NCBI GenBank assembly: GCA_001768195.1 | Contig: MENI01000083.1 | Coordinates: 1 to 37,536 of the forward strand | DNA: 37,536 nt | DNA from: Bacteroidetes bacterium GWA2_40_15 | GTDB taxonomy: Bacteria; Bacteroidota; Bacteroidia; Bacteroidales; VadinHA17 | Direction: 5' to 3' | Part shown: piece after piece, positions 3,296-28,909 of the stretch | Layout of the letters: every line of letters starts with the position of its first letter | How positions within the stretch are numbered: the first letter of the stretch is position 1 | The notes under the pieces: generated by a model | Seen by the model: only the letters and a program-made list of their open reading frames with translations | Told to the model about the DNA's origin: nothing | Database searches by the model: none | Position numbers and translations under genes: made by a program

Positions 3296-3797
3296 ATGGC
3301 ATATTTATTAAAGTTGATTGCATTATTTAATCTGATATTAATAGCCATACCTATGACAGCCCAGAATCAAACCAGAGAGTTTAAGCTTGCTTTAGTTCAG
3401 ATGTATGTTACCCCCGGCGATTTGCTGAAAAACCTCTCTCATGCGACACAACTTATTACTGAAGCAGCAGCCGGAGGAGCAAATGTTGTTCTGCTGCCTG
3501 AGGTAATAGACCTTGGCTGGACTCATCCCTCTGCAAAGGAACTGGCAGGGATCATCCCCGGTGGAAAGGCATTCAATACACTGGCAAATGCTGCAAAAAA
3601 ACAATGTCAGGATCTGCTGGAAATGCATCGGTTGTTCACTTATCATCGGTCCCGAAGGAAAGGAAGAATTAATGGGTCCTTATGGAGATAAAGCTGAAAA
3701 AATTATGTTTTATAACATAAATCCTGTTCCGCGTCCGGCACCCCTGTCCCCGTTGGCTTCGCCGATCCCGCAAGCGGGATTCAAAGGGGAAATCTAA
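3296..3797 (+). pseudogene. Decayed carbon-nitrogen hydrolase (nitrilase family)
   Basis: Frame 2 starts with a hydrophobic signal-like segment and then reads like a nitrilase-superfamily N-terminus: FKLALVQMYVT, then GGANVVLLPEV, which holds the family's catalytic Glu. At the A7 run at 3595-3601 the reading shifts: frame 3 continues as NNVRIC, as expected after AAK. Reading then jumps straight to a C-terminal block, SLIIGPEGKEELMGPYG followed by VPRPA. The region between, which in this family carries the catalytic Lys and Cys, is missing, and the tail after VPRPA is replaced by palindromic repeat sequence. About 165 codons remain against roughly 300 in the family. At least two lesions are present (a homopolymer shift and an internal deletion), so I call it a pseudogene. 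The weaker alternative is an assembly error. Confidence 0.75.
3765..3780. repeat. Short perfect palindrome ATCCCGC-AA-GCGGGAT
   Basis: Seven-base arms around an AA loop lie inside a larger CCCC...GGGG frame (about 3748-3790). This replaces the expected C-terminal coding sequence of the nitrilase remnant, suggesting that a repeat element entered or replaced the gene end. Confidence 0.6.
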
Positions 3798-3863: not shown

Positions 3864-4964
3864 CTACAGCCTTATAAATATCTTCTTCTTATACAGGTAG
3901 TAACACATATACCACACCATTGCCACAACAACGATTGTCAGCATTACATCTTTACCCGCATCACTCATCCAGAAAAAGATCCTCGATATGAAAGGATCAG
4001 CTGCACCGCGAAGGAGGTTCTTACCACCGAGGTTGGAGAAAAGGTAGATGAATATGGCATTCATACCAACTATGGCAAAGAACATAAGTGTCCGGGTATA
4101 TTTCATCATATCTATCAGCCAGTACGAGAATGCCATTGCAACAAGACAATAACCTCCGCTGGTTATTACGAATGAGCTGGTGCATATACGTTTGATTATC
4201 GGAATACAGGGATCCATCAGATAGCCGGCAGCGATCGTAATAATACCAGGAATTAGCATCGTAAGTAATTTCTTTTTATATGAAAAGTCTTTCATAAGCA
4301 GCATCCCGACAAGTACGCCCCATATTGTATGGGCTGTAGTTGGTATCGCATTGAAAGAGACCCAGTGCCCTGTACTCAGGTGTCCGGATATCAGCAAGTC
4401 GACCCAGGCACCAAAGTTCTTATCAGGAGTAAATGGCTGGTTGAATCCATCTACCGGAAATACCCTGTAGATAACATCCGAGAGGATTATCATTGCAAAT
4501 GATATTGCAATCTGGATCTTAAAATCTGTCCTCATTATCAGGAAAGCTACCAGGTAAGTGAATGAGAGCTGTGCCAGAACATTCTGGAAAGCATAGGAAT
4601 CGCGATCCGACCCAAGCATGAAACCTAAGGCAAGAAGCCAGAATGATCTTGAGAGTGCATGCAGAAATGCTTTTTTCCAGCTGTCGCCCCTTGCCAGTCT
4701 CTTTGACAGGGAGAAAGGCATTGCCACTCCTACAATGAACATGAAGAATGGCTGGACCAGGTCCCATGCATAAAGGCCCTGCCATTCAGCATGTTCAAAC
4801 TGCCGGCTAAGGAGTGCAATAACAGAGCCTCCCATGTCGTTTTTTGCCAGTTCATGAAATATATTTGTTACACCTGTAACAAGCATGAACATTGTAAAAC
4901 CTCTGAAAAAATCGACCGATAGTACACGATCCGGTGCCTTTTCTGCCTGAATTGGAGTGCTCAT
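3864..4964 (-). CDS. DUF5009 / HGSNAT-NagX-like membrane acyltransferase, copy B
   Basis: This is a 366-residue integral membrane protein with around ten hydrophobic segments. The N-terminal signature RVLSVDFFRGFTM, then HAEWQGLYAWDLVQPFFMF, matches the DUF5009/heparan-alpha-glucosaminide N-acetyltransferase-like group. In the human enzyme the His before the W-(N/Q)-G-L block lies in the active-site region, and here it is His in HAEW. The known family reaction moves acetyl from cytosolic acetyl-CoA to the amino group of a terminal glucosamine on the other side of the membrane. Activity of the bacterial DUF5009 proteins is inferred, and the acyl acceptor here is unknown. It is the last gene of the minus-strand cluster, 89 bases after its paralogue (5054-6169), with which it shares near-identical blocks (VLAQLS.TYLVAFLIM, Y.YK.KIFI). 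A tandem duplication is likely. Confidence 0.8.
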   Translation of the reverse strand: MSTPIQAEKAPDRVLSVDFFRGFTMFMLVTGVTNIFHELAKNDMGGSVIALLSRQFEHAEWQGLYAWDLVQPFFMFIVGVAMPFSLSKRLARGDSWKKAFLHALSRSFWLLALGFMLGSDRDSYAFQNVLAQLSFTYLVAFLIMRTDFKIQIAISFAMIILSDVIYRVFPVDGFNQPFTPDKNFGAWVDLLISGHLSTGHWVSFNAIPTTAHTIWGVLVGMLLMKDFSYKKKLLTMLIPGIITIAAGYLMDPCIPIIKRICTSSFVITSGGYCLVAMAFSYWLIDMMKYTRTLMFFAIVGMNAIFIYLFSNLGGKNLLRGAADPFISRIFFWMSDAGKDVMLTIVVVAMVWYMCYYLYKKKIFIRL

Positions 4965-4980
4965 AGTTATTGGTATTAGG

Positions 4981-5041
4981 GCTCACGACTCAGGGCTCAC
5001 GACGCAGGGCTTCCTGTCGCCTGTCGCCTGTCGCCTGTCGC
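4981..5041. repeat. Short tandem repeats between the two DUF5009 genes
   Basis: A 14-base unit GCTCACGACNCAGG occurs twice (4981-4994, 4995-5008), followed by four copies of the heptamer CTGTCGC (5014-5041). A shorter stretch of the same kind (GTCGCCTGTCGCC, near 3851-3864) lies at the 3' end of the other DUF5009 gene. The gene duplication may therefore have carried its 3' flank with it. Confidence 0.7.
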
Positions 5042-5053
5042 CGGTTACCGGAT

Positions 5054-6169
5054 TTATATCTTTATGAATATCTTGTTCTTATACAACCAGTAACACATAT
5101 ACCACTGAGCTGCCCAAACAATAAGGCTTGTGGCAATTCCAACCGTCAGGATGCCTGCCCAGGTCAGCAACGAAGTGGTGAATGGAGTGAAGATCTTATA
5201 TAAAAGAGCTGCTCCACCGACTTCAAAGAAAACGTAGATGGCAATACAGTTCATACCTACAATCAGGAATGGTTTTGCTCCTTCAATAAACTTCTTTTTA
5301 ACATCTATCAGCCAGTAAGAGAAACAGAGTGCAAGGAGTGTCCAGCCTGCACTCGCAAACACGAACGATGATGTGGCTATCTTCTTGATTATTGGTGTTA
5401 TGCCGAGCCAGTCAAGGCCAAATCCGACAGCGAGGCAGATAATACCTGCAATGATAAGAGTCTTTATTCTTTCACTTGCCGGTTTATCGCTCATCAGCAG
5501 TTTCCCTGCAAGTACACCCCACACTGTATGAGCAGTTGTTGATACAAAGTTGAGAGTTGCCCAGATACTCGTTTTGTCAGTTCCCTCAACCATCTGGTTG
5601 AACCATGCTCCAAGATTTTTATATGGAACCCATGCCTGGTTGAACCCTTCAACAGGGAAGAAGCGGTAGGCAAGATCAATCAGGAGAAGAATGATAAGTG
5701 TGAAAGAGATCTGGAATTTTGCACTTTTGTTCATTATCAGGAATGCAACCAGGTAAGTTACAGATAGCTGCGCCAGTACATCCTGAAATCTCCATACTAT
5801 TTTACCTGGTCCGATGCAATAGATGGCCCATCCTAAAAAGAGGAGGAGCGCAGAACGTTTCAGAGCATGAAGAAGTATTTTTCTGTCGGAATCACCTTTT
5901 TTCTTCCTGTTGGTTACGGCAAAAGGTATAGCCACACCAACAATGAACATAAAGAATGGCTGGATCAGATCCCAGAAGCGGAGGCCGTTCCATTCGTGAT
6001 GGCTCAGCTGTGTTGCAAAAAAGTGAATTACTCCTGTTCCTCCGAACTCATGCAGATGCTCGTAAAGCAATGTGCTTTCGCCTATAAGCAGGAACATTGT
6101 AAAACCGCGAAAGAAATCGACAGAGAGAACTCTCTCTTTGGGTTGAATGAACTGGTCGGGTGTTGTCAT
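5054..6169 (-). CDS. DUF5009 / HGSNAT-NagX-like membrane acyltransferase, copy A
   Basis: This is a 371-residue polytopic membrane protein. Key blocks are RVLSVDFFRGFTMFLL near the N-terminus, then HHEWNGLRFWDLIQPFFMF with the family's conserved His, and a C-terminal MCYWLYKNKIFIKI. Its blocks match those of the adjacent copy ending at 3864 throughout. Its start lies only 12 bases after the stop of the DUF4091 gene (6182-8020), so the two are almost certainly co-transcribed. The likely role is transfer of an acyl, probably acetyl, group to an amino sugar or sugar hydroxyl outside the cytoplasm. Family membership is well supported, but the substrate is not. Sequence drift between the two copies in the first loop (TLLYEHLHEFGG versus NIFHELAKNDMGG) may mean different acceptors. 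Confidence 0.8.
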   Translation of the reverse strand: MTTPDQFIQPKERVLSVDFFRGFTMFLLIGESTLLYEHLHEFGGTGVIHFFATQLSHHEWNGLRFWDLIQPFFMFIVGVAIPFAVTNRKKKGDSDRKILLHALKRSALLLFLGWAIYCIGPGKIVWRFQDVLAQLSVTYLVAFLIMNKSAKFQISFTLIILLLIDLAYRFFPVEGFNQAWVPYKNLGAWFNQMVEGTDKTSIWATLNFVSTTAHTVWGVLAGKLLMSDKPASERIKTLIIAGIICLAVGFGLDWLGITPIIKKIATSSFVFASAGWTLLALCFSYWLIDVKKKFIEGAKPFLIVGMNCIAIYVFFEVGGAALLYKIFTPFTTSLLTWAGILTVGIATSLIVWAAQWYMCYWLYKNKIFIKI

Positions 6170-6181
6170 ACTTAAGAATAT

Positions 6182-8020
6182 TTATTTCAATAATTGCAAT
6201 AGCTCATCCCTTACCTGATCATAGTCGATGCTGCTTTCTGACCATTGAACTTTATCGGTCATTTTCACCTCACTCATTGCTTTTGGCACTATCCTGTTGA
6301 TCATCTTCTTTACTGTTTCCCTGCCAGCCTTCTGTTCAGCCATTTTCATTAATACAGCATCCTGCTGGCCCCGTCGCAGATTTTTTAATCTTATCGATGG
6401 CATAAGCTGATTCAGTCCCCTGTCCTCATCGGGATAGAAAGGCATTCTTCCCGGATAAAAGAGGATTCCGTCGCCGTTTCCGAATTCCATGCTGTTGTTT
6501 ATGAATGTAAGTGGATTTGAAAATATGTTCTGGTGTAATCGTCCCTTTGGTCCCTGGGAATTATGCTGCCAGTGTGTGGTCTCCCATATGAACCACTGGT
6601 TAATTCCGTATTTATATAATATCCACGGATTGACCCTGTAGTCTATTCCGGCTCCTTCAAGAATCACTGAACCTATACGAGGCCTGTTACCGTTATAGAA
6701 CCAGTAATCTCCTCCTTTTGCCCGGAGTGAGGGAAGCATTTTCAGCTCGATACCGTCATAAGCGGCCCAGATATCTATGCTGCCTGAAAGTTCTTCCCTG
6801 TAGTGCGATGTTGTGAAAACAGGGAGCGATTTCCCAATCCCGGGATTACTTTTTACCAGGGCAGCCTTCTCTTTTACCAGTTCGAAAACCGGAGGGGTTG
6901 GTTCATCAATAATATACCAGAAATAAGTTATTTCCGGTGCATTTTTCTTAAACCATTCAACCCAGAGATCAGACTGTTTCCAGACCTCTTCACTGTTATT
7001 TCCCAGCACATTACTTCCATACATACCGATTGGAAAAAGGGATTCCCCTGTACCTTCGCCCGGGCCATTGTAACCATTGGCCGGAGTGAATGCACTTCCA
7101 TCTAAATATGTCTTATATCTCTCCATCTTTTCAATGTTGAAAGGAGAACGGTTAACATCAAAGCCCCCTGACATATTAATTCTGTGCCTGTGAGCTTCGA
7201 ATTTGATCATTTTGTCGAGATTCTCCTGTGACAAACCCGGAAAGTATTCCCCTATATCTCCGTTGAAAGCCCATATATTGGTTGCGTTATCCTCTGACAG
7301 ATAGAATGGTGACAATTCAACTTCCAGAGGCAGTTCTTTAATTACTTTTCCTGCTTCCAGCACTTTTACAAAGCCATAATAAACACCGGCAGGAAAGCTT
7401 TCCTGGTCACGGGGCAGATGAATATCCACCCAGAAACCCTGGTTCTGAAAAGATCGCCCCATAAAGTGTTTGTCTCTGTCATTAACTGCAGGAATATTGA
7501 GTGGAAATCCGCCCCGCCCCGGCATTGCATTGGAAGGGATAAGTGCATCGGGGATCCAGCCTGTCATCTTTTTCGGTGCAGAGGCGGCTGATCCGTAAAA
7601 CCAGTTTGGATGTGTTGAATCGACTACATGAAGATAATGCTGGCTGAATACCTCTACAGTACCTGCAGGTCCATATTTAAGAGTGTTACCGCCTATAACC
7701 CTTCCGGAGCCTTTTTCAACCGGTGACTCAACTGATATTTCAATTGCCCCTGCTCCCTTTTTATCAACTTCAACTATTACCTGGAATGCAAGTACTTCAT
7801 TATAAAGGCCTTTCAATCTTATTCTATTTCCATCCCAGATGAAACTAGACTCCCTTGCGGAATGGTTATCATCATTGCGGAATACTTTCTCCCCGTCTCC
7901 CACAGCCCAGGCGTTTTTTACCTGGCTGTAACCTGGTGAATAAAAAAGAAACAGAATGGCTATTATTATCAGTATTCTTACAGCAAAACTGCTGTTAACT
8001 CCTGATTTGTAAGATCTCAT
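6182..8020 (-). CDS. DUF4091 (GH123-like) glycosidase, intact
   Basis: The protein has 612 residues with a hydrophobic export segment (residues 13-32). Residues about 36-245 form an N-terminal beta-rich domain (starts KNAWAVGDGEKVFR; contains GFWVDIHLPRDQESFPAGVYYG). A TIM-barrel-like catalytic domain follows. D372-E373 in YIIDEP correspond to the Asp-Glu pair that drives substrate-assisted hydrolysis in GH123. The C-terminal DUF4091 blocks are present (YRVNPWILYKYGINQWFIW; NGDGILFYPG; SIRLKNLRRGQQD). In the last block the usual DG(I/M).DYEY reads GQQDAVL, a small departure. GH123 enzymes remove beta-linked GalNAc, but DUF4091 is broader than GH123, so the substrate is inferred. It lies 12 bases before the DUF5009 gene and 38 bases after the TIM-barrel gene, so it is part of the minus-strand operon. 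Confidence 0.8.
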   Translation of the reverse strand: MRSYKSGVNSSFAVRILIIIAILFLFYSPGYSQVKNAWAVGDGEKVFRNDDNHSARESSFIWDGNRIRLKGLYNEVLAFQVIVEVDKKGAGAIEISVESPVEKGSGRVIGGNTLKYGPAGTVEVFSQHYLHVVDSTHPNWFYGSAASAPKKMTGWIPDALIPSNAMPGRGGFPLNIPAVNDRDKHFMGRSFQNQGFWVDIHLPRDQESFPAGVYYGFVKVLEAGKVIKELPLEVELSPFYLSEDNATNIWAFNGDIGEYFPGLSQENLDKMIKFEAHRHRINMSGGFDVNRSPFNIEKMERYKTYLDGSAFTPANGYNGPGEGTGESLFPIGMYGSNVLGNNSEEVWKQSDLWVEWFKKNAPEITYFWYIIDEPTPPVFELVKEKAALVKSNPGIGKSLPVFTTSHYREELSGSIDIWAAYDGIELKMLPSLRAKGGDYWFYNGNRPRIGSVILEGAGIDYRVNPWILYKYGINQWFIWETTHWQHNSQGPKGRLHQNIFSNPLTFINNSMEFGNGDGILFYPGRMPFYPDEDRGLNQLMPSIRLKNLRRGQQDAVLMKMAEQKAGRETVKKMINRIVPKAMSEVKMTDKVQWSESSIDYDQVRDELLQLLK

Positions 8021-8058: not shown

Positions 8059-9009
8059 TTAACAGAATTTTATTCCGATGGATGCTCCGGTCTTTCTGAC
8101 GCTTGCTGCTGCCTGATCATACTCATCTGCTGTTTTAAGATGTTCGAGCATGAGAGGGATATTCTTTAATTTACTCAGTTCAGTGAGAAATATCTTGTAG
8201 TCGAGCCCTCCTGTTCCTATCAGAACTTCGTCGAGGTGTACTGTTAGATTTGTACCCAGGCGTATATCCTTTGCATGGCAGTTTTTTATATAGGGCCCCA
8301 GTTTCTCAAAGCACTCTTTGATGAAAGCCCCGTTCCTGTAATATCTTTCAGGTGAATTGATCATATTCACAGGATCGAGATGTACTGCAAATTGCTTTCT
8401 GTCAATCGCCTTTATAAGTTGCAGGTATGAATCAGGAGAATCGGGGTATGCCCATGGCATTGTTTCAAGGGTGAAGAAGGTCCTGACAGGCTTTATTTCA
8501 TCAATGATCTCCCTGGTTGTCTGTACAATAATATCGAATGTCTCTTTCGTAAGATTTTCGGGGTCAGGTCCATCCCACTTTTCTCCGCGTGAGCCGCTAA
8601 TGTTCACACAGCATCCTGCTCCTATAAGATCGGCCAGGGCAAGGGCCTCTTTGCATTTTTTTAAAGCTTCATTTCTCTCCTTATCATTTTTGCTGATTGG
8701 ATTGCTCCATGCTCCCACTTCAGAAATGGTAATATCAGCATCCTTTGCTGCTTTTTCAAATGCTTTTACAGTAGCCTGATCAGTACCGGGAGACACCGGG
8801 CAGTATGCAGCGGCATAACCTTTTGCCTTAACTGCCTTTGCCCATACCTGAGGATCTTTCAGTTCTCCGAAAACAGGTCCTCCCAGGCGGATACATCCCG
8901 TTCCTTTCTGGAGATCTGAATGCATACCAAAACCTTTAAGTGCCAGCATTGATGCACTTCCTGCAAGTGTCAGTCTGGCAAAATTTCGACGGGAGATTGA
9001 TCTATTCAT
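8059..9009 (-). CDS. Tat-exported sugar phosphate isomerase/epimerase-like TIM barrel
   Basis: The protein has 316 residues. The N-terminus carries a twin-arginine signal (SRRNFARLTLAGSAS, residues 6-20). The body is an AP-endonuclease-2/xylose-isomerase-like TIM barrel. Residues E182 (LETMPW), H210-D212 (VHLDPVN), H245 (NCHAKD) and E289 (LEHLKT) are in the right order to be the metal ligands and catalytic acids. Proteins of this type in glycan loci are usually annotated as sugar isomerases or 3-ketosugar-processing enzymes. Export suggests it acts in the periplasm, and the true substrate cannot be read from sequence. It sits between the redoxin and the DUF4091 gene (38-base gap) on the minus strand. 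Confidence 0.8.
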   Translation of the reverse strand: MNRSISRRNFARLTLAGSASMLALKGFGMHSDLQKGTGCIRLGGPVFGELKDPQVWAKAVKAKGYAAAYCPVSPGTDQATVKAFEKAAKDADITISEVGAWSNPISKNDKERNEALKKCKEALALADLIGAGCCVNISGSRGEKWDGPDPENLTKETFDIIVQTTREIIDEIKPVRTFFTLETMPWAYPDSPDSYLQLIKAIDRKQFAVHLDPVNMINSPERYYRNGAFIKECFEKLGPYIKNCHAKDIRLGTNLTVHLDEVLIGTGGLDYKIFLTELSKLKNIPLMLEHLKTADEYDQAAASVRKTGASIGIKFC

Positions 9010-9174: not shown

Positions 9175-10305
9175 TCAATCATCAGCAAAGAACCTTCCTA
9201 TTTTCTGCATTATCTCTTTTCTGACCTCCAACGGATCAATCACTCCATTATGTGAATAGACAACTTCTCCTCCCGGGGCAACAAGCAGTGTGTATGGAAG
9301 CGACCCTGACCAGTTTTTGTCGACAGCCTCAATAAGAGGGTATTTGTTATCTGCTGAATAGAGATAGTTCTTAACAGCCGAATTCTTATCTTTCAGGAAC
9401 TCAAGTACCTTATCTTTTTTCTTCAATCCGTCGGTGCTGATGGAGACAAACTCAAAGTCGCGGGCTCCGTACATACGCTGCATTGTTACAAACTCAGGAT
9501 ATTCTATAACGCACGGTCCGCACCATGTGGCCCATACATTTATGAGACGGTATTTATTCGATTTATTTGCAAGCACCTCTTTGATACCATTAAGATCTGC
9601 CTCAATAACTTCAACCGGCTTTTTCTTCCAGTCGGCATCGTATTTGGCCCTCCATTCTGCCTTGTTTGCCCACTTGATTGAACAGCCAAATGTTTTTGTC
9701 TTTTCAACAGGTACCTGTTTTCCTTCGAGAAGGGCAACAATGGCATTCCTGGTATCATGTTCCTTTGCTTCAACATATGGATTTTCCATCTCGTCGATTC
9801 GTCCGCAGAAACGTAGTTTGCGTTTTGAATCAAAGATAAAGACATGAGGAGTGGTGGTCGGGCCATAGGCTGTTGCCATCTCCTGTTTGTCTCCATCATA
9901 GATGTATGGCATCGGGTATTTCATGTCCTTTGCCCGGATCTTCATCTCCTCAAAGGTGTCTCCGAGATCTGTATAGCCTAATTCCTCGAGGCATACAGCC
10001 TGGGGATGGTTTGGAGAAACAAGCAAGAATCCAACCCCTTTGGGTTTAAATTCCCGGTAAAGCTTGTCTACTCTGTCTTCATAAGCCTGGGCTGTCGGGC
10101 AATGGTTTGCAGTAAAGATTATTACAAGGATCTTGTCTTTACTGAAGCTGCCCAGGGTATAGATCTTCCCGTCTGTTCCGGGCAATGAGAAAGCAGGTGC
10201 AGCTGCTCCGATCTCAAGGGTTTTGGGATCTTCGGCATATAGTGCATAATTCCGGCAAATGAATATTGTAAACACAGTCAGAAGTGTCAAAATGTTCTTT
10301 TTCAT
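9175..10305 (-). CDS. Two-domain redoxin: peroxiredoxin-like + TlpA-type thioredoxin
   Basis: The protein has 376 residues with a signal peptide (residues about 4-24). Domain 1 (residues about 30-195) is an AhpC/TSA-like redoxin with a single Cys69 in FTANHCPTAQ where thioredoxins have CxxC. It also contains GPTTTPHVFIFD with the expected cis-Pro. Domain 2 (residues about 235-370) is a TlpA-like thioredoxin with the canonical WCGPC (residues 261-265) in NVWATWCGPCVIEYPEF and cis-Pro in SLPYTLLV. The protein probably acts as a periplasmic thiol-disulfide reductant. What it reduces is not visible, although cysteine-containing exported neighbours are possible clients. It lies between the truncated DUF4091 gene (113-base gap) and the TIM-barrel gene (165-base gap). 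Its presence inside a glycan operon is less usual than that of the other genes. Confidence 0.85.
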   Translation of the reverse strand: MKKNILTLLTVFTIFICRNYALYAEDPKTLEIGAAAPAFSLPGTDGKIYTLGSFSKDKILVIIFTANHCPTAQAYEDRVDKLYREFKPKGVGFLLVSPNHPQAVCLEELGYTDLGDTFEEMKIRAKDMKYPMPYIYDGDKQEMATAYGPTTTPHVFIFDSKRKLRFCGRIDEMENPYVEAKEHDTRNAIVALLEGKQVPVEKTKTFGCSIKWANKAEWRAKYDADWKKKPVEVIEADLNGIKEVLANKSNKYRLINVWATWCGPCVIEYPEFVTMQRMYGARDFEFVSISTDGLKKKDKVLEFLKDKNSAVKNYLYSADNKYPLIEAVDKNWSGSLPYTLLVAPGGEVVYSHNGVIDPLEVRKEIMQKIGRFFADD

Positions 10306-10418: not shown

Positions 10419-11783
10419 TCAGTTTTTCTCAGGTGCTGAAGATATAAGTTCTGCAAGCTGTTTACGGTACTCCTCGAATTTAAATCCTCGATCCGACCAG
10501 CTGATGTCATTCTGATCTTTTGCTTCCCATACTGCAGTTGGGATACAGTTATTTACAATTGTTTGCACTTCAGCTTCCAGACTCATTATTTTTGCAAGCC
10601 ATAAGTATTCAAAGTCCTGGGCGCCCCTTCTCCAGTTTTTAGCTCTTATTGAGGAGAGTGGACCTTCCAGGTTTCTGCTTTCCTCAGGGAAAAGGTTATC
10701 CTGACCAGGATACAGGAATGTTCCATCGCCATTGATCCTGTCTTCATAGGTAAGAGGATTCACAAAGACATTCAGATTTGTCCAGAATGTTGTGGACCAG
10801 TAAAAATACTGGTCAATGTCATATTTCCAGACGATCCAGGGCATTACCCTGAACTCAACAGCATCGGCATCACTCACCACAGCACCCATCCCTGGTCTGT
10901 AACCGTTATAATAACTGTTCAAATCATCAAGATTATCTACCCCTGTAACCAGGTCAAATCTATGACGATGGGCCATCTGTTGATACTTCAGGTCAAGAGC
11001 ATAGTATGCTTCGCTGTCGCTTTCAACACCATGTCTTTGGGCTATGAAACGAGGGTAATAACCGAACATATTGCTGATATGTGTCGAGTCGGGAAGGGTG
11101 AAGTCATATACCTTTATATATATAGGTATCTTTTTAAACACACTCTCTGCAACAGATATAATTGCCATACCTGAATAATCTCCTGCAGTCGCGTCTTCCG
11201 GGATCAGAATGTCGACCCATACACCCTGGTTCTTCCCGGCTTCAATTGAGAAAGGGGCACCTCCATTACCGGGAGCAGCTGAAAATGGGATCAGGCAATC
11301 AGGCACCCATCCTGTATGATAGGCTGAAGGGAGAGCTGTTTCTGAAAAAAACCAGAGAGGAGGTGATCGTTTTTCCATATTAAGGTAGTGTTCAGTAAAG
11401 AGTTCTACAAACCTTCCCCTGTAGTCAAAAGGATCAGAAGGCCCTGAAGCTGATCCGGGAATAACGGATTCCCCGTTTACCAGATCGCTGACAGAGACAT
11501 TGACCTGTGAGGCCCCTTTATTATCTCCCTCAATAATCAGCTGAAAAGCAACAATTTCATTTCTGGCTCCAAACAGGTTGATTGTTCCGTTGGCCCAGAC
11601 AGCATTATCGGGATCGGTTGCCAGAGGATTGCTGATATCATCTTTTCTTATTTTTTCACCATCGTCAACAGCCCATATCCTTTTTATACCTGACTGTCCT
11701 GTGCATGACACAGCCAGGGCCACAATCGTTAAAAGCTTCAGATAACTGGTCATTGAGCGTATGGTTAAAGTGTTTTTGTTCAT
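10419..11783 (-). CDS. DUF4091 lipoprotein lacking the catalytic segment
   Basis: The protein has 454 residues. Lipobox ALAVSC puts a lipid-anchored Cys at 27. The N-terminal beta domain (KRIWAVDDGEKIRK to about residue 230) and the C-terminal DUF4091 blocks (FRVMPWIVWKYDIDQYFYW; NGDGTFLYPG; SIRAKNWRRGAQDFEYLW) are both well kept. Compared with the 612-residue paralogue, HRHR at residues 272-275 (279-280 there for its end) is followed after only 17 residues by YNGYRPG (Y292), where the paralogue has about 162. About 140 residues, including the Asp-Glu catalytic pair, are therefore missing in frame near 10910-10945. The frame is open throughout, so a product can be made, but hydrolysis is not expected. 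It could be a binding protein, a decaying gene, or an assembly deletion. It follows the AraC gene after 70 bases. Confidence 0.75.
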   Translation of the reverse strand: MNKNTLTIRSMTSYLKLLTIVALAVSCTGQSGIKRIWAVDDGEKIRKDDISNPLATDPDNAVWANGTINLFGARNEIVAFQLIIEGDNKGASQVNVSVSDLVNGESVIPGSASGPSDPFDYRGRFVELFTEHYLNMEKRSPPLWFFSETALPSAYHTGWVPDCLIPFSAAPGNGGAPFSIEAGKNQGVWVDILIPEDATAGDYSGMAIISVAESVFKKIPIYIKVYDFTLPDSTHISNMFGYYPRFIAQRHGVESDSEAYYALDLKYQQMAHRHRFDLVTGVDNLDDLNSYYNGYRPGMGAVVSDADAVEFRVMPWIVWKYDIDQYFYWSTTFWTNLNVFVNPLTYEDRINGDGTFLYPGQDNLFPEESRNLEGPLSSIRAKNWRRGAQDFEYLWLAKIMSLEAEVQTIVNNCIPTAVWEAKDQNDISWSDRGFKFEEYRKQLAELISSAPEKN

Positions 11784-11853
11784 AGGCTTTTTGTTAGTCG
11801 GGATGTTACTGATTTGAAAATATAAAATAGTATTAAAGCCGGTTAACTCTGTT

Positions 11854-16575: not shown

Positions 16576-19500
16576 ATGAAAAAAAAACTACCTAACCTTA
16601 TTCCGATACCAATATCCGGGATAGAAAAACTCCTAATGATCATGAAACTAGCTCTGATTATCGTTTTTATAAGCGTTCTGCAGGTCAGTGCAAAAACTTA
16701 TTCCCAGGTTACTGTCAATCTGGATGTCCAGGATAAGTCCATTCGTGAAGTACTAAAATCCATTGAACAGCAAAGTCAGGTTCGGTTTTTCTACAGCGAC
16801 GACCTGATGGTTATGAATGAAAAGATTGATGTAACTGCAGAAAATAAAAATATTTTAAGTGTGCTGGATGAGATATTTTCAGATTCAAAACTGACTTATA
16901 AGACTTATGACAACGATCTGATTGTAATTGCTCCCAGGGAGTTTCTGCAACAGCAGGAAAGAGTCACCGGAACAATTACTGATGCAGAAACCTCTGAGCC
17001 TCTTGTCGGAGTAAATGTTGTCCTCGAAGGAACCACCATCGGGGTAATGACCGACATTAATGGTAAATTTACCCTTAATGTACCAAACCTCACCGGCACA
17101 CTAAAGGTCACCTACATAGGATATGTTGCGCAGGATATTCAAATTAACGGAAGGACCGTAATAGATTTTGCACTTGAGTCTGATTTAAAAGCTCTTGAGG
17201 AAGTTGTAGTAACAGGTTATGGAACTGTAAGAAGAAGCGATCTGACAGGATCTGTCAGTTCCATCAAAACAGAACAGCTCCTGCAGCTGCCCACACAACG
17301 CGTTGACCAGGCTATACAGGGCAGGGCAACAGGTGTATTTATCCTTAATACTGATGGTTCTCCCGGAGGTAACACACTGATCCGTATCAGGGGCAGTAAC
17401 TCGATAAACGGAGGAAATGACCCTCTTATAATTGTCGATGGATTACAGGGTGCTAATATCAATCAGCTGAATCCAAATGATATAGAATCTATGGAGATTT
17501 TAAAGGATGCTTCAGCCACAGCTATTTATGGCTCCAGGGGTGCAAACGGTGTCATACTGATAACGACAAAGTTAGGAAAGACAGGTAAGCCTGTTATTGA
17601 GGCAGGCTACAGTGTGGGGCTTCAAAAACTGGCCCTTAAGCTCCCTGTTATGGATGCAGCTTCATTTGCAAAGTATAATAACTTTGTCAATAGTTTTGGA
17701 ACACAAGATGGCCAGACTCCTAAGTACTACTTTACGGATGCTGATATTGCATATTATGAGAAAAACGGAGGAACCGACTGGCAGGATGAGATATATGATC
17801 TCGGTGTAATGCAGACCACCAATCTGGCTATAAGCGGAGCAACAGACAGACTTAAATACATGGTTTCAACCGGCTACCTCGATCATCAGGGAATATTGTT
17901 AAACTCAGGCTACAACAGGTTATCATTAAGGGCAAACCTGGCTGCTGACATCACTGACTGGGTTGACTTCGGCCTGAACTATTCATATACCAATGAAAGA
18001 TATAAATCGCCACCGTTCAATGCAAATTTATTTACCGCTGTAAACAATGCGCCCAGGTGGGCTCCTACCGAACCGGTATATGATCAGTTTGGCAACTACG
18101 CCAGGCACAGGCCAGGTTATGGCGCCTATGACACCTGGAATCCGGTTGCAACAGCTCTGGAGACATTGATTGAGAATCCGACATACCAGAATAACGTAAA
18201 CATGTTCCTGAATTTCAAGATTGCAAAGGGACTTACCCTGAAAATTATGGGTGGCGGAACATTTGCAAACGCATATAATAATAAATACGAAAATACAAAA
18301 ACCCGTAACGGTTATGCAATGAACGGAGTCGGGAGCGTCAATAACTCCTTCAGCAATCTTTACCAGAATACAAATATCCTTACTTACGATAAAACCGTTG
18401 GAATGCATCATATCGCAGTTACAGGAGTTGTTGAGGAAATAATAAGTAACTGGTTCGGCAATTCCATGTCCGGACAGAATTTCCTGGTTGACCAGCTTGG
18501 TACGGACAATATGGATGGAGCCAAATCAGTGTCAGTTGATTCCTGGCGCGGTGACAGGGCGCTGACCTCATTTATGGGACGTATAAATTATGGCCTTTTG
18601 GACAAATACCTGCTTACTGTAAGTTACAGGGCTGACGGCTCATCGGTTTTCGGAGAAAACAATAAATGGGGTTACTTCCCTTCAGGTTCGCTGGCATGGA
18701 GGATTTCACAGGAAGGCTTTCTTCAGGATTCAGAGGTTATCACTGACCTGAAACTGAGAGTCAGTTATGGTGTTACGGGTAACCAGGGAATAAACCCCTA
18801 TGGTTCCCTGGCAAGACTTGGATCAGGCAACTGGTACAGGTATCCTTATATTAACGGACAAAATCTTAATATCGGGTTCGGTATTTCAGGTATCGCCAAT
18901 CCTGATCTGAAATGGGAATCAACAGCCCAGAGCAATATAGGGATTGATATATCATTATTCAAAGGGAGACTTATCTCAACAATTGATGTTTACCGGAAAG
19001 TAACGGAAGATCTTCTTATGCCAAGGCAGTTGCCGGATTATGTAGGTGTTTCAAGTGTCATTGACAATATAGGATCTATCGAAAACAGAGGGCTCGAGAT
19101 AATGATAGGCGGTGATCCGATTGTAGGGAATTTCAGATGGAACACATCAGTCAATTTCACAATGAACCGCAATGAGGTACTTGACCTGGGACCCGGAATA
19201 AAAAGAATAGGCTATACCCCTACATCAGGAGGATATTCGCTTGGCTCTTCATATATGTTCCTCGAAGTTGGCCAGCCTTTTGGTCAGATGAAAGGATATA
19301 AGTTCCTTGGCTTATGGGGTGCTGATGAGGATGCTGCTGCAAGGGCTTACGGACAGCTCCCGGGTTTGCCTAAATATGCCGATCTGACCGGACCCGAGGG
19401 TAAACCTGACGGAGTGGTCAATGAACTTGATAAAACAACTATTGGCTATGGCTACCCTGATTTTACGATCGGTTGGTCCAACCTCTTTACCTACAGGAAC

Positions 19501-19983
19501 TTTGATCTGTCATTTCTTATTACAGGAGCCTATGGTGCTGATCTTTTTAATACTATAAGGATAAGAAGGGAAACCTATGAAGGTAATCATCCTGTACTAT
19601 TGGATTACTGGACTCCTCAAAATCAGGATACTGAAGTGCCTGCATTATATGACGGAGCGTGGGTTCAGTCTCAGAATCTGGTTAACAAATATCTTTTAGG
19701 GAATAGTTCCGGAGCCACTTCAAGATGGGTTGAGGATGCCTCATTTACAAGACTGAAAACTATAACTTTTGCGTATAATTTTCAGCCTTCCCTGCTTCAG
19801 AAAATCGGATTTTCAAAAGCAAGGTTATTTTTCACCGGAACAAACCTGATAACATTGACCGACTATTCGGGATACGATCCTGAAATAGCACAGTTCCCGA
19901 CTAATGATGCTACTATAGGGATTGATCAGAGTGTTTATCCGACTTCACGAATGTATACCTTTGGTGCTGACTTTACTTTCTAA
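16576..19983 (+). CDS. susC: SusC/RagA-family TonB-dependent outer-membrane transporter with STN domain
   Basis: The protein has 1135 residues. Signal segment about 20-42; STN signalling domain about 45-118 (VTVNLDVQDKSIREVLKSIE); carboxypeptidase-regulatory-like domain about 129-200 (VTGTITDAETSEPLVGVNV). The EEVVVTGYG junction at about 208-216 is typical of the family, and the plug domain is about 225-335 (GSPGGNTLIRIRGSNSI; ILKDASATAIYGSRGANG). A long beta-barrel ends in FTFGADFTF with a terminal Phe, as outer-membrane barrels require. It imports oligosaccharides bound by its SusD partner, powered by TonB. The STN domain plus the adjacent FecI/FecR pair indicates that import also induces the locus. 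SusC is a family name here; the substrate is not known. Confidence 0.95.
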   Translation: MKKKLPNLIPIPISGIEKLLMIMKLALIIVFISVLQVSAKTYSQVTVNLDVQDKSIREVLKSIEQQSQVRFFYSDDLMVMNEKIDVTAENKNILSVLDEIFSDSKLTYKTYDNDLIVIAPREFLQQQERVTGTITDAETSEPLVGVNVVLEGTTIGVMTDINGKFTLNVPNLTGTLKVTYIGYVAQDIQINGRTVIDFALESDLKALEEVVVTGYGTVRRSDLTGSVSSIKTEQLLQLPTQRVDQAIQGRATGVFILNTDGSPGGNTLIRIRGSNSINGGNDPLIIVDGLQGANINQLNPNDIESMEILKDASATAIYGSRGANGVILITTKLGKTGKPVIEAGYSVGLQKLALKLPVMDAASFAKYNNFVNSFGTQDGQTPKYYFTDADIAYYEKNGGTDWQDEIYDLGVMQTTNLAISGATDRLKYMVSTGYLDHQGILLNSGYNRLSLRANLAADITDWVDFGLNYSYTNERYKSPPFNANLFTAVNNAPRWAPTEPVYDQFGNYARHRPGYGAYDTWNPVATALETLIENPTYQNNVNMFLNFKIAKGLTLKIMGGGTFANAYNNKYENTKTRNGYAMNGVGSVNNSFSNLYQNTNILTYDKTVGMHHIAVTGVVEEIISNWFGNSMSGQNFLVDQLGTDNMDGAKSVSVDSWRGDRALTSFMGRINYGLLDKYLLTVSYRADGSSVFGENNKWGYFPSGSLAWRISQEGFLQDSEVITDLKLRVSYGVTGNQGINPYGSLARLGSGNWYRYPYINGQNLNIGFGISGIANPDLKWESTAQSNIGIDISLFKGRLISTIDVYRKVTEDLLMPRQLPDYVGVSSVIDNIGSIENRGLEIMIGGDPIVGNFRWNTSVNFTMNRNEVLDLGPGIKRIGYTPTSGGYSLGSSYMFLEVGQPFGQMKGYKFLGLWGADEDAAARAYGQLPGLPKYADLTGPEGKPDGVVNELDKTTIGYGYPDFTIGWSNLFTYRNFDLSFLITGAYGADLFNTIRIRRETYEGNHPVLLDYWTPQNQDTEVPALYDGAWVQSQNLVNKYLLGNSSGATSRWVEDASFTRLKTITFAYNFQPSLLQKIGFSKARLFFTGTNLITLTDYSGYDPEIAQFPTNDATIGIDQSVYPTSRMYTFGADFTF

Positions 19984-20002
19984 CAACATTAAATCTACGA
20001 TC

Positions 20003-21460
20003 ATGAATAGAAAAATATCGAAAATATCAAATCTGGTAATGTTGTCAGGAGTATTTCTCCTTCTTTTTACCGGATGTGAAAAACTTAAAGAGAAACCCAC
20101 CGACTTTGTCGGCCCTGACAACTTTTTTAAAACACCGGCACAGGTTGAATCGGCATTTGTCAGTTCAATGCAAAGACTATGGGGCGGATGGCAATTTTAC
20201 GACTGGATGGGCTATCCGGAATGGCCATCGCAGGATGATCAGTTGTATGGAGGCGATCTGGCTATAGGCGACAATGATGCCGCCGGCAGCTGGCAAAAAC
20301 ATTACCAGGCCATTGCTGATCTCAATCCCGCCATTAAAGCTCTGGCTGAAGATCAGTTAGGTGCAGGAGTGCCGCAGGAAACTAAAGACCAGCTAATGGC
20401 AGAGGCAAAATTCCTGAGAGCATTTAATTATTTCTGGCTTGTAAGGATTTATGGCGATGTGCCTCTTATACTTGAGGAAACGGACGTAATAAAAGGAGAT
20501 ATTGTCAGATCCCCGGTTGCTGATGTATATAACCAGATAGTGGAAGACATGCTTTTTGCCACACAAAATCTTCCCGATGTATGGCCAGGTGGTCAGAATG
20601 CACGCCCGACTGCCGATGTGGCCAGGGGAATACTTGCAAAAGTATATATAACCATGGCAACTGCTCCTTTGAACGCAACAACCAACTACGCCAAGGCCAG
20701 GGATATGGCAAAACAGGTTATGGATGGCGGCCGTTACAGTCTGGTTCCTGATGTGGCGGACGTATTTAATATGGATTATGATTTAGGTCCTGAATTTATG
20801 TGGGCCTTTCATAACTCGGAGGAGGAGTATGTAATTGAGCCTCAGATATGGCTGCCGGGCGACATGGCAGGAGGCTGGGGAGACGTAACAGCTGAAAAAA
20901 TCTGGGGCGAAGCTTTTCCTGAAGAACCCCGCAAGCATGCCTACCTGCTGCTTGAGGACCATTGGTTCGGAACAGGCACTACATACCTTGACTGGTGGAA
21001 ATCAGCTCCTTATATCAGAAAATACCTGTATGATACACCTGAAAATATGGAGAAAAATGTCTCATATCAGTCTCAACCAATATTAAGGTATGCAGATGTA
21101 TTGCTGCTTTTTGCCGAAGCGGATAATATGGTCAACGGACCCACACAGGCAGCCTGTGATGCAGTTAACCAGATCATCAACAGGGCAACCGGAGGGGTCC
21201 CGAATCCGGCAGATCCGCTGTTCACAACTGCAATGTCGAAAGGAGCGTTTGATGACGCTGTGATCAATCAGCGAAGTCTGGAACTCTGTTTTGAATATGA
21301 CCGGTGGTTCGACATCTGCCGTAAAAGGATACTGGATAAGGTTACAGATCCTGATTATCTGCCAAATTATTCCGAGAATGATTATCTTATGCCTATCCCG
21401 CAGAAAGACCTGAGGCTGAATAAGAGTCTTACTCAGAATCCGGGATATACCAGACCATAG
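20003..21460 (+). CDS. susD: SusD/RagB-family glycan-binding lipoprotein
   Basis: The protein has 485 residues from ATG 20003. An in-frame upstream ATG at 19922 lies within the susC end and was not used, because MNRKISKISN from 20003 gives a proper lipoprotein signal with lipobox LFTGC (Cys25). SusD blocks are LMAEAKFLRAFNYFWLVRIY and YGDVPLI, TPR-like helices, ILRYADVLLLFAEADNM, and near the C-terminus NQRSLELCFEYDRWFDICR. It binds the target glycan on the cell surface as a lid over the SusC barrel. It starts 19 bases after susC, so the two are co-transcribed, and a clear terminator follows. Confidence 0.95.
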   Translation: MNRKISKISNLVMLSGVFLLLFTGCEKLKEKPTDFVGPDNFFKTPAQVESAFVSSMQRLWGGWQFYDWMGYPEWPSQDDQLYGGDLAIGDNDAAGSWQKHYQAIADLNPAIKALAEDQLGAGVPQETKDQLMAEAKFLRAFNYFWLVRIYGDVPLILEETDVIKGDIVRSPVADVYNQIVEDMLFATQNLPDVWPGGQNARPTADVARGILAKVYITMATAPLNATTNYAKARDMAKQVMDGGRYSLVPDVADVFNMDYDLGPEFMWAFHNSEEEYVIEPQIWLPGDMAGGWGDVTAEKIWGEAFPEEPRKHAYLLLEDHWFGTGTTYLDWWKSAPYIRKYLYDTPENMEKNVSYQSQPILRYADVLLLFAEADNMVNGPTQAACDAVNQIINRATGGVPNPADPLFTTAMSKGAFDDAVINQRSLELCFEYDRWFDICRKRILDKVTDPDYLPNYSENDYLMPIPQKDLRLNKSLTQNPGYTRP

Positions 21461-25556: not shown

Positions 25557-27056
25557 ATGAGAAAGTTATTATTTTTTGCTATCCTGTTATCAGGCTGCTC
25601 TGCGGCAACACAGGATATGAGCTACAGCCTGCCCGGAAAAACTTTTTATGATGAGCTGCCAAATCCGGTAACTGCAAACATCACCCAATGGTCGGCGGTA
25701 AGGTCTGATGTAAATGTGAGTTTTGCCAGTGATAATGTGAGATATCCGAAGGAACAGGTCCCCCTGGTCTCTTCCGATGAATGGGCAACAATGGCATGGA
25801 AAGGGAAAAAAATTCATACACAAATACTTGTATGGACAAAAAAGGATATCCCTGCCGGTAAATACACAGGTTCGGTTACCGTTAATGCAGGAGAGGAATT
25901 TGTTCTCAGGATATCATTAGATGTAGCTGTTCATATACTTCCATCGTCTTCGGAGTGGAAATTCGACCTGGATCTCTGGCAGAACCCTGATCCCGTCGCA
26001 AAGGTGCATGGTGTTGAACTATGGAGTGATGAGCATTACAGACTTATGAGGCCATATTATGAAATGCTTGCCGGGGCAGGACAGAAAAGTATAACCGCAT
26101 TTATAATCGACCAGCCATGGGGACCTGACATTATTTATCACCGAAATCCGACATTTATAAAGTGGTCGAGGAAAAAGGATGGAAGCTGGTCGTATGACTA
26201 TACCGTATTTGACAAGTATGTTGAATTTGTAATGAGTTGCGGTATAGATCAGAGAATTAACTGCTATTCCATGATTACCTGGGATCTTAATTTCATCTAC
26301 TTTGATGAAGCGAAGGGAGATACAGTGTCTGTTTTCGCAAAGCCTGGCTCACAGGCTTATAATGAACTATGGGAACCAATGATCAGCAATTTTACAAACC
26401 ATCTTAAATCAAAAGGATGGTTTGAAAAGACAACCATAGCAATGGATGAACGCGATATGGAGGGTATGATAGCGGTTATGGCACTGCTCAAGAGAGTGGA
26501 TACTGAATGGAAAACAGCACTTGCCGGAGGTTATCACCGCGAGATAGCCATGGATATTTATGACTATTGCATAATAATCCATGACAAATTTGATGAAGAT
26601 ATTCTTGAAGCCCGCAGGGCTGCGGGACTGCCGACAACATTTTATACTGCATGCGGCGAGAGGCGGCCGAATGCTTTTACATTTTCGCCTCCTGCTGAAA
26701 ATGTATGGATAGGCTGGTACGCAGCAGCCGAAGGATTTACAGGATACCTCAGGTGGGCATATAATAACTGGACGGAAGATGTGTTGCGTGATACCCGTTA
26801 CAAGACATGGCCGGCCGGTGATTGCTATCAGATCTATCCGGGGCCGCGTACATCAATAAGATTTGAGAAACTTATTGAAGGCATTCAGGATTTTGAAAAG
26901 ATCCGTATTCTAAGGAATAAGTTCAGCAGTGAAGGAGATATTGTAAAACTGGATGAATTGAATATAGTTTTATCAAATTTCACACAGGAGAATCTTGAGA
27001 ATATACCGGCCGCTGAAATAGTAAAAAAGGGCAAGGAATTCATCAACAGATTTTGA
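25557..27056 (+). CDS. GH123-type (DUF4091) lipoprotein, putative beta-N-acetylgalactosaminidase
   Basis: The protein has 499 residues; lipobox LLSGC gives Cys14. A beta-sandwich N-domain (about 20-130) is followed by the catalytic barrel starting DLDLWQNPDPVAKV. Characteristic blocks are WSYDYTVFDKYVEFVM, INCYSMITWDLNFIYFD, HLKSKGWFEKTTIAMDERDMEGM with the Asp-Glu pair D297-E298, WIGWYAAAEGFTGYLRWAYNNW, and IYPGPRTSIRFEKLIEGIQDFEK. Of the five DUF4091-type proteins here, this most closely resembles characterised GH123 enzymes, which cleave beta-GalNAc through substrate-assisted catalysis using the 2-acetamido group. The substrate is inferred from family only. It starts 17 bases after the ASPIC gene stop. 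Confidence 0.85.
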   Translation: MRKLLFFAILLSGCSAATQDMSYSLPGKTFYDELPNPVTANITQWSAVRSDVNVSFASDNVRYPKEQVPLVSSDEWATMAWKGKKIHTQILVWTKKDIPAGKYTGSVTVNAGEEFVLRISLDVAVHILPSSSEWKFDLDLWQNPDPVAKVHGVELWSDEHYRLMRPYYEMLAGAGQKSITAFIIDQPWGPDIIYHRNPTFIKWSRKKDGSWSYDYTVFDKYVEFVMSCGIDQRINCYSMITWDLNFIYFDEAKGDTVSVFAKPGSQAYNELWEPMISNFTNHLKSKGWFEKTTIAMDERDMEGMIAVMALLKRVDTEWKTALAGGYHREIAMDIYDYCIIIHDKFDEDILEARRAAGLPTTFYTACGERRPNAFTFSPPAENVWIGWYAAAEGFTGYLRWAYNNWTEDVLRDTRYKTWPAGDCYQIYPGPRTSIRFEKLIEGIQDFEKIRILRNKFSSEGDIVKLDELNIVLSNFTQENLENIPAAEIVKKGKEFINRF

Positions 27057-27103
27057 GTCAGGATTTATTAAAGGGACTGTATTAAACATAAAATCGTTGA
27101 GAT

Positions 27104-28909
27104 ATGAAAACCTTAAAAGCTGTTTCCGGAATAATGCCGGATAATCTGAACTTGTGCAGAATGATCACCAGGATATTGGCTCTTGTGATTTTTATTTTCT
27201 GCATAGTATCTGCAAGAGCCCAGCAGGCTGATGTGAAAGAGGATGTGAAAGTATGGGCAGTGCCAGGCGAACAGAAAGTACGTCCGAATGACAGGGTTGA
27301 AACCAACAACCTTGTATGGTCCGGTGAAAAAAAGCGGATCAAAGTGGCAGGAGCAGGGAACGAACATGTTCCTTTTCAGGTAGTTATTACCACACCTGTC
27401 CCTCCGGGATGGAGACCAAAAGCCCCGGATGGGTTTTTTGTGATAGCTTCTGATCTGAAATCAGCTGAAGGTAAGATAATTCCACAGAAGCAGGTGAACC
27501 TCTTCCTTGAGCATTATATTCAGATATATGCAATCTCGAGTCCGGTTGGTGCCAAGGGCTTATGGCCCGATGCCCTTGCTCCGCTTAAAGTGCCATTCAG
27601 CATGCAGGCTCAGTATGCAGTGGTTGGCAACAGACCTGTTTGGGTTGATGTTTATATTCCTTCAGGTACACCGAAAGGTACTTACAGCGGATCCATTACC
27701 GTAACAAGGTTTGACAAGGTTATTGAGACCCTTGGTATTGAGGTTGAGGTTTATGGTTTCTCCCTCCCTGAGGAAACACATCTTATTACTTATGTGAATA
27801 TTTCAAAAGGCGAAATAGCCAGGTTCTATAACAAACTGGCATCATCACCTGAGATGGAGGAGCTTACTCAGAACTACTTCACTTTTCTTTATGAGCACCG
27901 GATGGAAACATGGTTCAACGATCCCCTTGTTCCTTCCATTACCATCAAGGGTGAAAAACTGGATGTAAAGTTCAACGATCAGAGATATGATCAGTATCTG
28001 AATAAGCAGAAAACCAAGAGAGTAATTCTTGAAACTGCTCCACATGAGATTATAAGTCAGGCCGGAGATGATCACTTCTCTGATGCAACAATTAAGATGG
28101 TTAAGCAATACCTGACTGCTGTTGAATCCTATTTCAGGAAAAACGGCTGGAGGGACCGGCTTGTTTTTAACAGTCCTATTGATGAGCCAAATACGAAAAA
28201 GGAATACGAGGATACCCGTAAATGGGCTCAGATTGTTAATGAAACAGTACCGGGTATACCTTTCCTGGCAACTGAATCTCCGGTAACGGATAATCCTGAA
28301 TGGGGAACGCTGCGCGGATATGTGAACAATTTCTGTGTTCATGGCAACTCACTGAATAATCCGGTGGTTAAACAGGCATTACGCGAAGAACAGTTAAAAG
28401 GAGGTGAAGCTACATGGTATATCTCTTGTGATCAGGCATATCCACAGCCAAATTATTTCATTGATGCACCTGCCCTTGATCCGGTAATGGTTCCCTGGAT
28501 TACGGAAAGGTATAAAATGAACGGGTTCCTCTACTGGGCAGCCAATTTCTGGAATCAGACACCCGATCCATGGCTCGATCCTGTAACATTTATTTCGGGT
28601 TTTGACTGCAGCGGAGGTTATGTTCTGAATGGTGAAGGATCGTTGATATACCCGGGGAACCATACAAAAAGATATACCGGACAACCGGATGTGAATGGCG
28701 CTGTTTCTTCTATCAGGTTTGAGCTTCTGCGCGACGGGATCGAAGACTATGAATATCTGTGGATGCTGAAAGGTAAGGGAGCGGCTGATTTCGCTGAGGA
28801 GCAGGTACGGAATATGGTGATCGATGTAAGTACCTTCTCGCGTAACCTTGAGGAGCTCTATTTAACCCGTAAGGCAATGGCAGGGAAACTGGAAGAATTA
28901 TCAAAATAA
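27104..28909 (+). CDS. DUF4091 (GH123-like) glycosidase
   Basis: The protein has 601 residues from 27104. The start is uncertain: ATG 27161 (Met20) would give a cleaner signal peptide (MITRILALVIFIFCIVSARA). The N-terminal beta domain (about 45-225) holds VPFQVVIT, NLFLEHYIQIY and PVWVDVYIPSGTPKGTYSG. The catalytic domain has FNSPIDEPNTKKEYED, with the Asp-Glu pair at 360-361. The C-terminal DUF4091 region has MNGFLYWAANFWNQ, NGEGSLIYPG and SSIRFELLRDGIEDYEYLWML. It is secreted or periplasmic. It is the last gene of the ASPIC operon (47-base gap). The probable activity is hydrolysis of a beta-hexosaminide, by family analogy. Confidence 0.83.
   Translation: MKTLKAVSGIMPDNLNLCRMITRILALVIFIFCIVSARAQQADVKEDVKVWAVPGEQKVRPNDRVETNNLVWSGEKKRIKVAGAGNEHVPFQVVITTPVPPGWRPKAPDGFFVIASDLKSAEGKIIPQKQVNLFLEHYIQIYAISSPVGAKGLWPDALAPLKVPFSMQAQYAVVGNRPVWVDVYIPSGTPKGTYSGSITVTRFDKVIETLGIEVEVYGFSLPEETHLITYVNISKGEIARFYNKLASSPEMEELTQNYFTFLYEHRMETWFNDPLVPSITIKGEKLDVKFNDQRYDQYLNKQKTKRVILETAPHEIISQAGDDHFSDATIKMVKQYLTAVESYFRKNGWRDRLVFNSPIDEPNTKKEYEDTRKWAQIVNETVPGIPFLATESPVTDNPEWGTLRGYVNNFCVHGNSLNNPVVKQALREEQLKGGEATWYISCDQAYPQPNYFIDAPALDPVMVPWITERYKMNGFLYWAANFWNQTPDPWLDPVTFISGFDCSGGYVLNGEGSLIYPGNHTKRYTGQPDVNGAVSSIRFELLRDGIEDYEYLWMLKGKGAADFAEEQVRNMVIDVSTFSRNLEELYLTRKAMAGKLEELSK

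Follow-up and report, generated by a model that had tools for sequence, protein, structure and literature searches.

In the lysosome HGSNAT modifies the terminus of a glycan and so prepares it for the next exo-enzyme, its step coming before that of NAGLU. NagX has been proposed as the bacterial counterpart of HGSNAT, a periplasmic transacetylase for free glucosamine (PMC9007349), and DUF5009 proteins have been judged orthologous to HGSNAT, falling in the same TmAT clade by tree (PMC12423673), so that the idea of an HGSNAT counterpart in bacteria has precedents. Among amino-sugar polymers, Pel consists mainly of alternating galactosamine (GalN) and N-acetylgalactosamine (GalNAc) (PMC9135694), Gram-positive pel operons contain DUF4832 genes (PMC7112168), and SIR_1591, a TIM-barrel protein with a DUF4832 domain, disrupts Pel-dependent aggregates (PMC12345266). 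Here, two HGSNAT/NagX-like genes, NagXa and NagXb, are analysed in a 37,536-nucleotide stretch from Bacteroidetes bacterium GWA2_40_15 (MENI01000083.1, hereafter the window), which is one entire contig of its genome (G000). The original prediction for this stretch was an acetylate-then-cleave pair made up of NagXa and GH123a, a neighbouring protein resembling glycoside hydrolase (GH) family 123, which would open partly N-deacetylated polymers to the cell.

HGSNAT-like membrane proteins in the window

The minus strand reads, in gene order, thioredoxin-like protein, XylIso, GH123a, NagXa and NagXb. NagXa (5054..6169, 371 amino acids (aa)) begins 12 bases after GH123a (6182..8020), and NagXb (3864..4964, 366 aa, 49% identical to NagXa) follows after 89 bases on the same strand, confirming the reported arrangement of a NagX-type gene 12 bases behind a DUF4091/GH123-like gene with a second copy next. 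The two products are most likely HGSNAT/NagX-type transmembrane acetyltransferases with the TmAT fold. Fold comparison with one aligner finds the membrane fold of HGSNAT type in NagXa, which is 25% identical to human HGSNAT over a match confined to the C-terminal membrane part of the human protein, and the counterpart of the catalytic His297 is kept as His57 in NagXa, the histidine also being conserved in NagXb. Fold and catalytic histidine bear out the earlier claim that these DUF5009-type proteins are HGSNAT-like, although the bacterial counterpart of HGSNAT envisaged there had already been proposed as NagX, for free glucosamine (PMC9007349). The NCBIfam NagX profile (NF046061) scores the window proteins at 140.5 (NagXb) and 136 bits; the DUF5009 cut-off of 25 bits (PF16401) is missed by both, NagXb reaching 22.5 bits and NagXa giving no match at E 0.01.

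GH109, DUF4832 and NahK-like genes recur beside NagX

The genome collection holds at least 563 stretches encoding NagX relatives, the best 80 of which were kept as named loci; L131, without a match at the level of open reading frames (ORFs), was dropped, leaving 79. Within four genes of NagX, 11 loci carry a GH109 gene (11 genes) and eight carry DUF4832 (nine genes), every one on the same strand as NagX and none farther away, and NahK-like genes lie as close in six loci (four on the same strand, two on the opposite one). At least one of the three is present in 14/79 loci and at least two in 8/79. PKD lipoproteins occur within four genes in six loci and farther off in one, a proximity that is not significant (p 0.25) in near-far Fisher tests that count related loci as independent.

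GH109 was counted at 300 bits or more, generic Gfo/Idh proteins scoring 30-75 bits and the GH109 proteins of the named loci more than 600. All 11 pass the Pfam family, and a profile of these proteins finds the alpha-N-acetylgalactosaminidase 2ixa at E 4.7e-187. The group is mixed, with L155, L161 and L176 at 270-292 bits and L143 at 143 bits, a band that also holds the genus's ordinary copies. The NahK-like protein of L176 matches N-acetylhexosamine 1-kinase (E 3.7e-66), and L152 carries a NagB/PIG-L protein and an epimerase.

DUF4832 is rare, with 18 matches in 14 of 296 phylum genomes and none in G000 (E 1e-20). The 16 regions that cover all these matches comprise 12 without NagX and four with it (L216, L217, L219 and L220), the latter found via the DUF4832 search and lying outside the 79 loci. 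All four have SusC, SusD and a PKD protein; L219 and L220 also carry GH109, L216 and L217 carry NahK, and L216 further has a NagB/PIG-L protein and a sugar-phosphate mutase. In a FastTree tree of 142 NagX proteins, 140 of which were scored for neighbours (the same protein enters twice as L046/L111 and as L073/L146), a GH109 neighbour (15/140) requires at least 11 changes and a DUF4832 neighbour (12/140) at least seven. Separate branches of the tree thus show the association, among them L119, L143, L219/L220 and a clade of nine; these branch labels predate the 300-bit GH109 cut that the change counts use. Correlation between the two traits on this tree is not significant (8 independent pairs, median p 0.5).

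The window is tied to these loci through its relatives. In G011 and G001, of the same genus, the order is SusC-SusD-PKD-NagXa, with a NagXa 73% identical to that of the window, and each of the four G011 genes has homologs in the Pedobacter/Mucilaginibacter-type operon (best matches 46-48% for SusC, 40-42% for SusD, 29-32% for PKD, and 40-44% and, in L119, 52% for NagX). In G006 and G014 the NagXa ortholog directly adjoins a GH109-type gene. The GH31 gene of the window has three homologs in all surveyed regions (E 1e-8; L119, L143 and L221, 47-51%), all in DUF4832 loci, L221 having been fetched through DUF4832 and being without NagX. By homology, window NagXa belongs to the wider SusC-SusD-PKD-NagX group.

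Some further neighbours were noted. Weak DUF4832 proteins lie near GH123 genes at 10489-11952 of L093 (G000:C33) and 13518-14984 of L076 (G009:C61); the one in L076 is three genes from NagX and scores 58 bits (PF16116, 65.6 bits), and the 554-aa gene that adjoins NagX there, once read as DUF4832, is not one. Ten NagXa-type loci (e.g. L045, 10075-12840) have a protein of about 921 aa, by eye M1-type-aminopeptidase-like, adjoining NagXa on the opposite strand. In L058 (10001-11437) a sulfatase with an SGSH-type C-terminal domain directly follows the NagXa ortholog. In lysosomal heparan breakdown SGSH acts before HGSNAT, and this sulfatase-acetyltransferase pairing may therefore deserve attention.

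Proposed role of NagXa and NagXb

It seems on balance probable that NagXa and NagXb N-acetylate GalN or glucosamine (GlcN) in the periplasm and thereby feed N-acetylhexosamine enzymes; the acetyl transfer, its acceptor and the order of steps are what we infer. Acetyl from cytoplasmic acetyl-CoA would cross the membrane via the histidine of NagXa or NagXb and reach a hexosamine, GalN or GlcN, at its amino group on the periplasmic side. A sugar that has lost its N-acetyl group, whether as a free monomer or as the end of an oligosaccharide, would thus regain it and be accepted by the N-acetylhexosamine enzymes of the locus and by downstream kinases.

A bolder proposal, offered tentatively and with more doubt than confidence, is that several Bacteroidota lineages possess a dedicated SusC-SusD-PKD-NagX-DUF4874/DUF4832-NahK-GH109 uptake locus, of which the window locus would be a GH123-rich offshoot. 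Its substrates would be alpha-GalNAc polymers that have lost part of their N-acetyl groups, for example Pel and fungal galactosaminogalactan. In such a locus, fuller examples of which add NagB/PIG-L, mutase and epimerase genes, a surface DUF4832 enzyme would cut the polymer chain, NagX would draw on cytoplasmic acetyl-CoA to re-acetylate the GalN ends in the periplasm, and an exported GH109 alpha-GalNAcase would then take off GalNAc; exo-digestion would no longer be blocked by a chain in which GalN and GalNAc alternate. An exo-GalNAcase alone is expected to stall at each GalN, a difficulty that re-acetylation at the membrane would solve. The alternative order, in which free GalN is acetylated ahead of the kinase, is equally possible. 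The earlier suggestion that partly deacetylated polymers are used is backed as a general idea by the GH109, DUF4832 and NahK genes of other loci, but GH123 is not the partner.

Several points weigh against these proposals. NagXa and NagXb fall far under the NagX equivalog cut-off of 480 bits. The slot of the HGSNAT active-site Asn in transmembrane segment 1 holds Glu, there or close by, in NagXa and neither Glu nor Asn in NagXb, and Glu stands there in 106 of 142 NagX proteins, all by alignment register only. According to PMC12423673, no DUF5009 protein has a known activity. GH109, DUF4832 and a NahK-type kinase are absent among the 20 window proteins scanned (E 0.01), and 65 of the 79 named loci, many ending at contig edges, have none of the three within four genes of NagX. 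In another NagX branch (L071, L079, L085, L088 and L089) a 251-aa-type gene adjoins NagX on the same strand; the two that were checked are 3-keto-disaccharide hydrolases (PF06439), and acceptors may therefore differ. In SIR_1591 DUF4832 is described as a C-terminal domain of binding type beside the TIM barrel, deletion of the SIR_1591 gene gave no phenotype (PMC12345266), and since a cellulosomal protein carries DUF4832 too (PMC7480376), its presence does not establish Pel as the substrate.

A narrower form of the proposal, plausible although we lean away from it, is that NagXa and NagXb act only on freed hexosamine monomers, in GlcN or GalN catabolism and not in cleavage. This would agree with the fitness data that tie NagX to free glucosamine (PMC9007349), and the kinase, mutase and NagB-type genes of L216 would handle a re-acetylated monomer. 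However, human HGSNAT works on terminal residues (PMC9007349), and the recurrent exo-type GalNAcase family GH109 suits terminal acetylation equally. Genome context cannot separate monomer from terminal acetylation.

That the two proteins are instead O-acyltransferases, or acyl carriers, for some other acceptor such as keto- or amino-deoxy sugars is unlikely. The TmAT superfamily does include O-acylating AT3 proteins (PMC12423673), a DegT-type aminotransferase gene lies near the NagX pair in the window (12941-14215) and another immediately precedes a NagX gene of G058 (L097, 7636-8847), and 3-keto-disaccharide hydrolases neighbour the other NagX branch described above.

GH123a is not a conserved partner of NagXa

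GH123a is a distant GH123-like protein and a predicted glycosidase. It passes PF13320 weakly (24.3 bits, cut-off 23.1), matches the oligosaccharide-releasing beta-GalNAcase of PDB entry 8k2f at E 2.6e-9 with its N- and C-terminal stretches aligned, and has an IIDEP motif aligned with the Asp-Glu (DE) motifs of GH123c, GH123d and GH123e. In studied DUF4091 enzymes the motif's Asp stabilises the 2-acetamido group while its Glu serves as acid-base, and the enzymes tested use substrate-assisted catalysis (PMC11087588); the 2-acetamido-type catalysis ascribed to GH123a from the start is consistent with the motif that it keeps. Motif and mechanism, together with the 12-base spacing and shared direction, would suit a dedicated pair in which NagXa acetylates a terminal amino sugar and GH123a then cleaves it with 2-acetamido help. 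A genome search for the pairing was run as the original prediction had proposed, both from the NagX side and from the GH123 side; no conserved pairing was found, the outcome that the prediction had itself named as refuting, and GH123a-NagXa is rejected as a conserved pair.

The XylIso-NagXa-NagXb block is found in four genomes (G000, G015, G002 and G009), where XylIso (8059..9009 in the window, minus strand) is a xylose-isomerase-like TIM barrel (PF01261) with an N-terminal RR motif by eye. GH123a lies inside the block in the window only, as a variable insertion between XylIso and NagXa. In G002 and G009 NagXa directly follows XylIso; in G015 XylIso is one gene away and the slot (L038, 821-2698) is taken by a 625-aa beta-agarase-like protein (4bq2, E 6e-66). 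G002 at the equivalent place is also without GH123b, AraC and DegT, which suggests that these genes were added in the lineage of the window. In 392 further genomes sampled from the order, GH123a has one ortholog (E <=1e-25; G043, 55%), with GH20, ASPIC, SusC and SusD as neighbours, which is uninformative on pairing either way because its downstream side lies off the contig.

Across 161 regions, some overlapping, that hold 142 NagX and 27 GH123 ORFs, the two co-occur by phmmer detection only in L076 (G009:C61), with GH123 two genes from NagX on the opposite strand. A wider GH123 profile adds L089 (G002:C168), where a 990-aa PF19543 'GH123_N' protein (10634-13606; full-length match, 1218 bits) also sits two genes away from NagX, sharing its strand, with a 3-keto-disaccharide hydrolase in between; it has no relatives in the other regions surveyed. 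A GH123-related gene is thus near NagX in two of the 57 other NagX-centred regions of the genus and order (L038-L092, L096 and L097, five of them further NagX loci of G000) and adjacent in none, and GH123 lies within four genes of NagX in 0/79 named loci. As a control on detection, phmmer with five window proteins recovers 18 of 20 GH123-fetched regions and the wider profile 19; regions are at most about 21 kb long, many end at contig edges and some overlap, L039 and L190 for instance belonging to a single contig.

The NagX pair and GH123c/d, some 13-17 kb apart, share a locus in G000 and a contig in G002, so that membership of one locus is better supported than pairing. We consider a dedicated pair improbable and, by a modest preference, regard GH123a as a lineage-specific passenger in the operon that may profit from the acetylation chemistry. 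Least likely of all is that NagXa and NagXb are sugar importers like the putative N-acetylmuramic acid transporter of T. forsythia, a distant relative of NagX, since transport is argued against for NagX (PMC9007349) and the catalytic-type histidine and HGSNAT fold are retained.

Other features of the locus

The window contains a polysaccharide utilisation locus with an abundance of GH123-type genes. The plus strand carries, in order, an ECF sigma factor, FecR, SusC and SusD (16576..21460), an ASPIC/FG-GAP protein, GH123c and GH123d (25557..28909), GH31, GH27 and GH123e. GH123c and GH123d are stronger matches to PF13320 (352 and 94 bits) and are conserved alongside SusC/SusD in G002 and G015 at 73-80% identity; GH123e (34082..36994) is GH123-like with a DEPTD motif (95 bits). 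The GH31 gene (29535..31139) encodes an alpha-galactosidase-type protein (8j53, E 1e-166), and the closest match of GH27 (32565-33965) is the beta-L-arabinopyranosidase 4nx0 (E 1e-136), with the putative alpha-N-acetylgalactosaminidase 3cc1 a close second. Two overlapping ORFs in different frames at 31360-32314 resemble a single broken gene.

On the minus strand, the thioredoxin/AhpC-TSA-like protein (9175..10305) is a member of the NagX block kept in G002 and G009. GH123b (10419..11783), a paralog of GH123a, matches it in two pieces (query 14-288 and 441-611) within a single open frame; the in-frame internal loss takes out the catalytic DE region, and the product is probably a decayed or binding-only protein. 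The gap between NagXb and NagXa contains tandem repeats at 4978-5042 (a 14-base unit x2.4 and CCTGTCG x4.3), and a carbon-nitrogen hydrolase ORF at 3296-3691 spans just the first 73 profile positions and looks truncated. Signal peptides, lipoboxes and TAT-like starts were judged by eye only. G000 has eight GH123_cat matches; counting it, any such match is present in 11 of 61 genomes at E 0.001 and in 9 of 247 phylum genomes at E 1e-10. The closest named records among the matches listed are Bacteroidales metagenome-assembled genomes, two of them labelled 'fen'.

Comparison with known systems

If the dedicated locus proposed here exists, it would mirror in bacteria what HGSNAT does in the lysosome. 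With an HGSNAT-like protein set beside an alpha-GalNAcase family, a kinase of N-acetylhexosamine type and a DUF4832 hydrolase, the recurring operon would suggest both a definite class of substrates and an assay, and its hosts are candidate consumers of cationic biofilm polymers, Pel and galactosaminogalactan among them; the GH109/N-acetylgalactosamine gene context makes re-acetylation of a sugar before use testable. Among the matches listed, in a search that left subscription literature mostly uncovered, no published link of a NagX-type protein to GH109, DUF4832, NahK or Pel breakdown was found.

With NagX of the SO_3504 type the window proteins share an HGSNAT catalytic domain standing alone (about 370 aa), the conserved histidine and an amino-sugar gene context, but they score far lower against the equivalog and sit in a SusC/SusD locus with glycosidases. 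DUF5009 (PF16401) is placed with HGSNAT in the TmAT superfamily, and the window proteins miss its Pfam cut-off. The GH123/DUF4091 beta-N-acetylgalactosaminidases (8k2f) have the DE motif in common with GH123a, but GH123a is very remote from them. The systems for Pel and galactosaminogalactan breakdown (PelA hydrolase, SIR_1591, Sph3 and Ega3; PMC12345266) have DUF4832 in common with 8/79 NagX loci. Unlike human HGSNAT, which acts in heparan breakdown in the lysosome, the putative bacterial acetyltransferases have glycosidase genes as neighbours, GH123 in the window and GH109 in its relatives.

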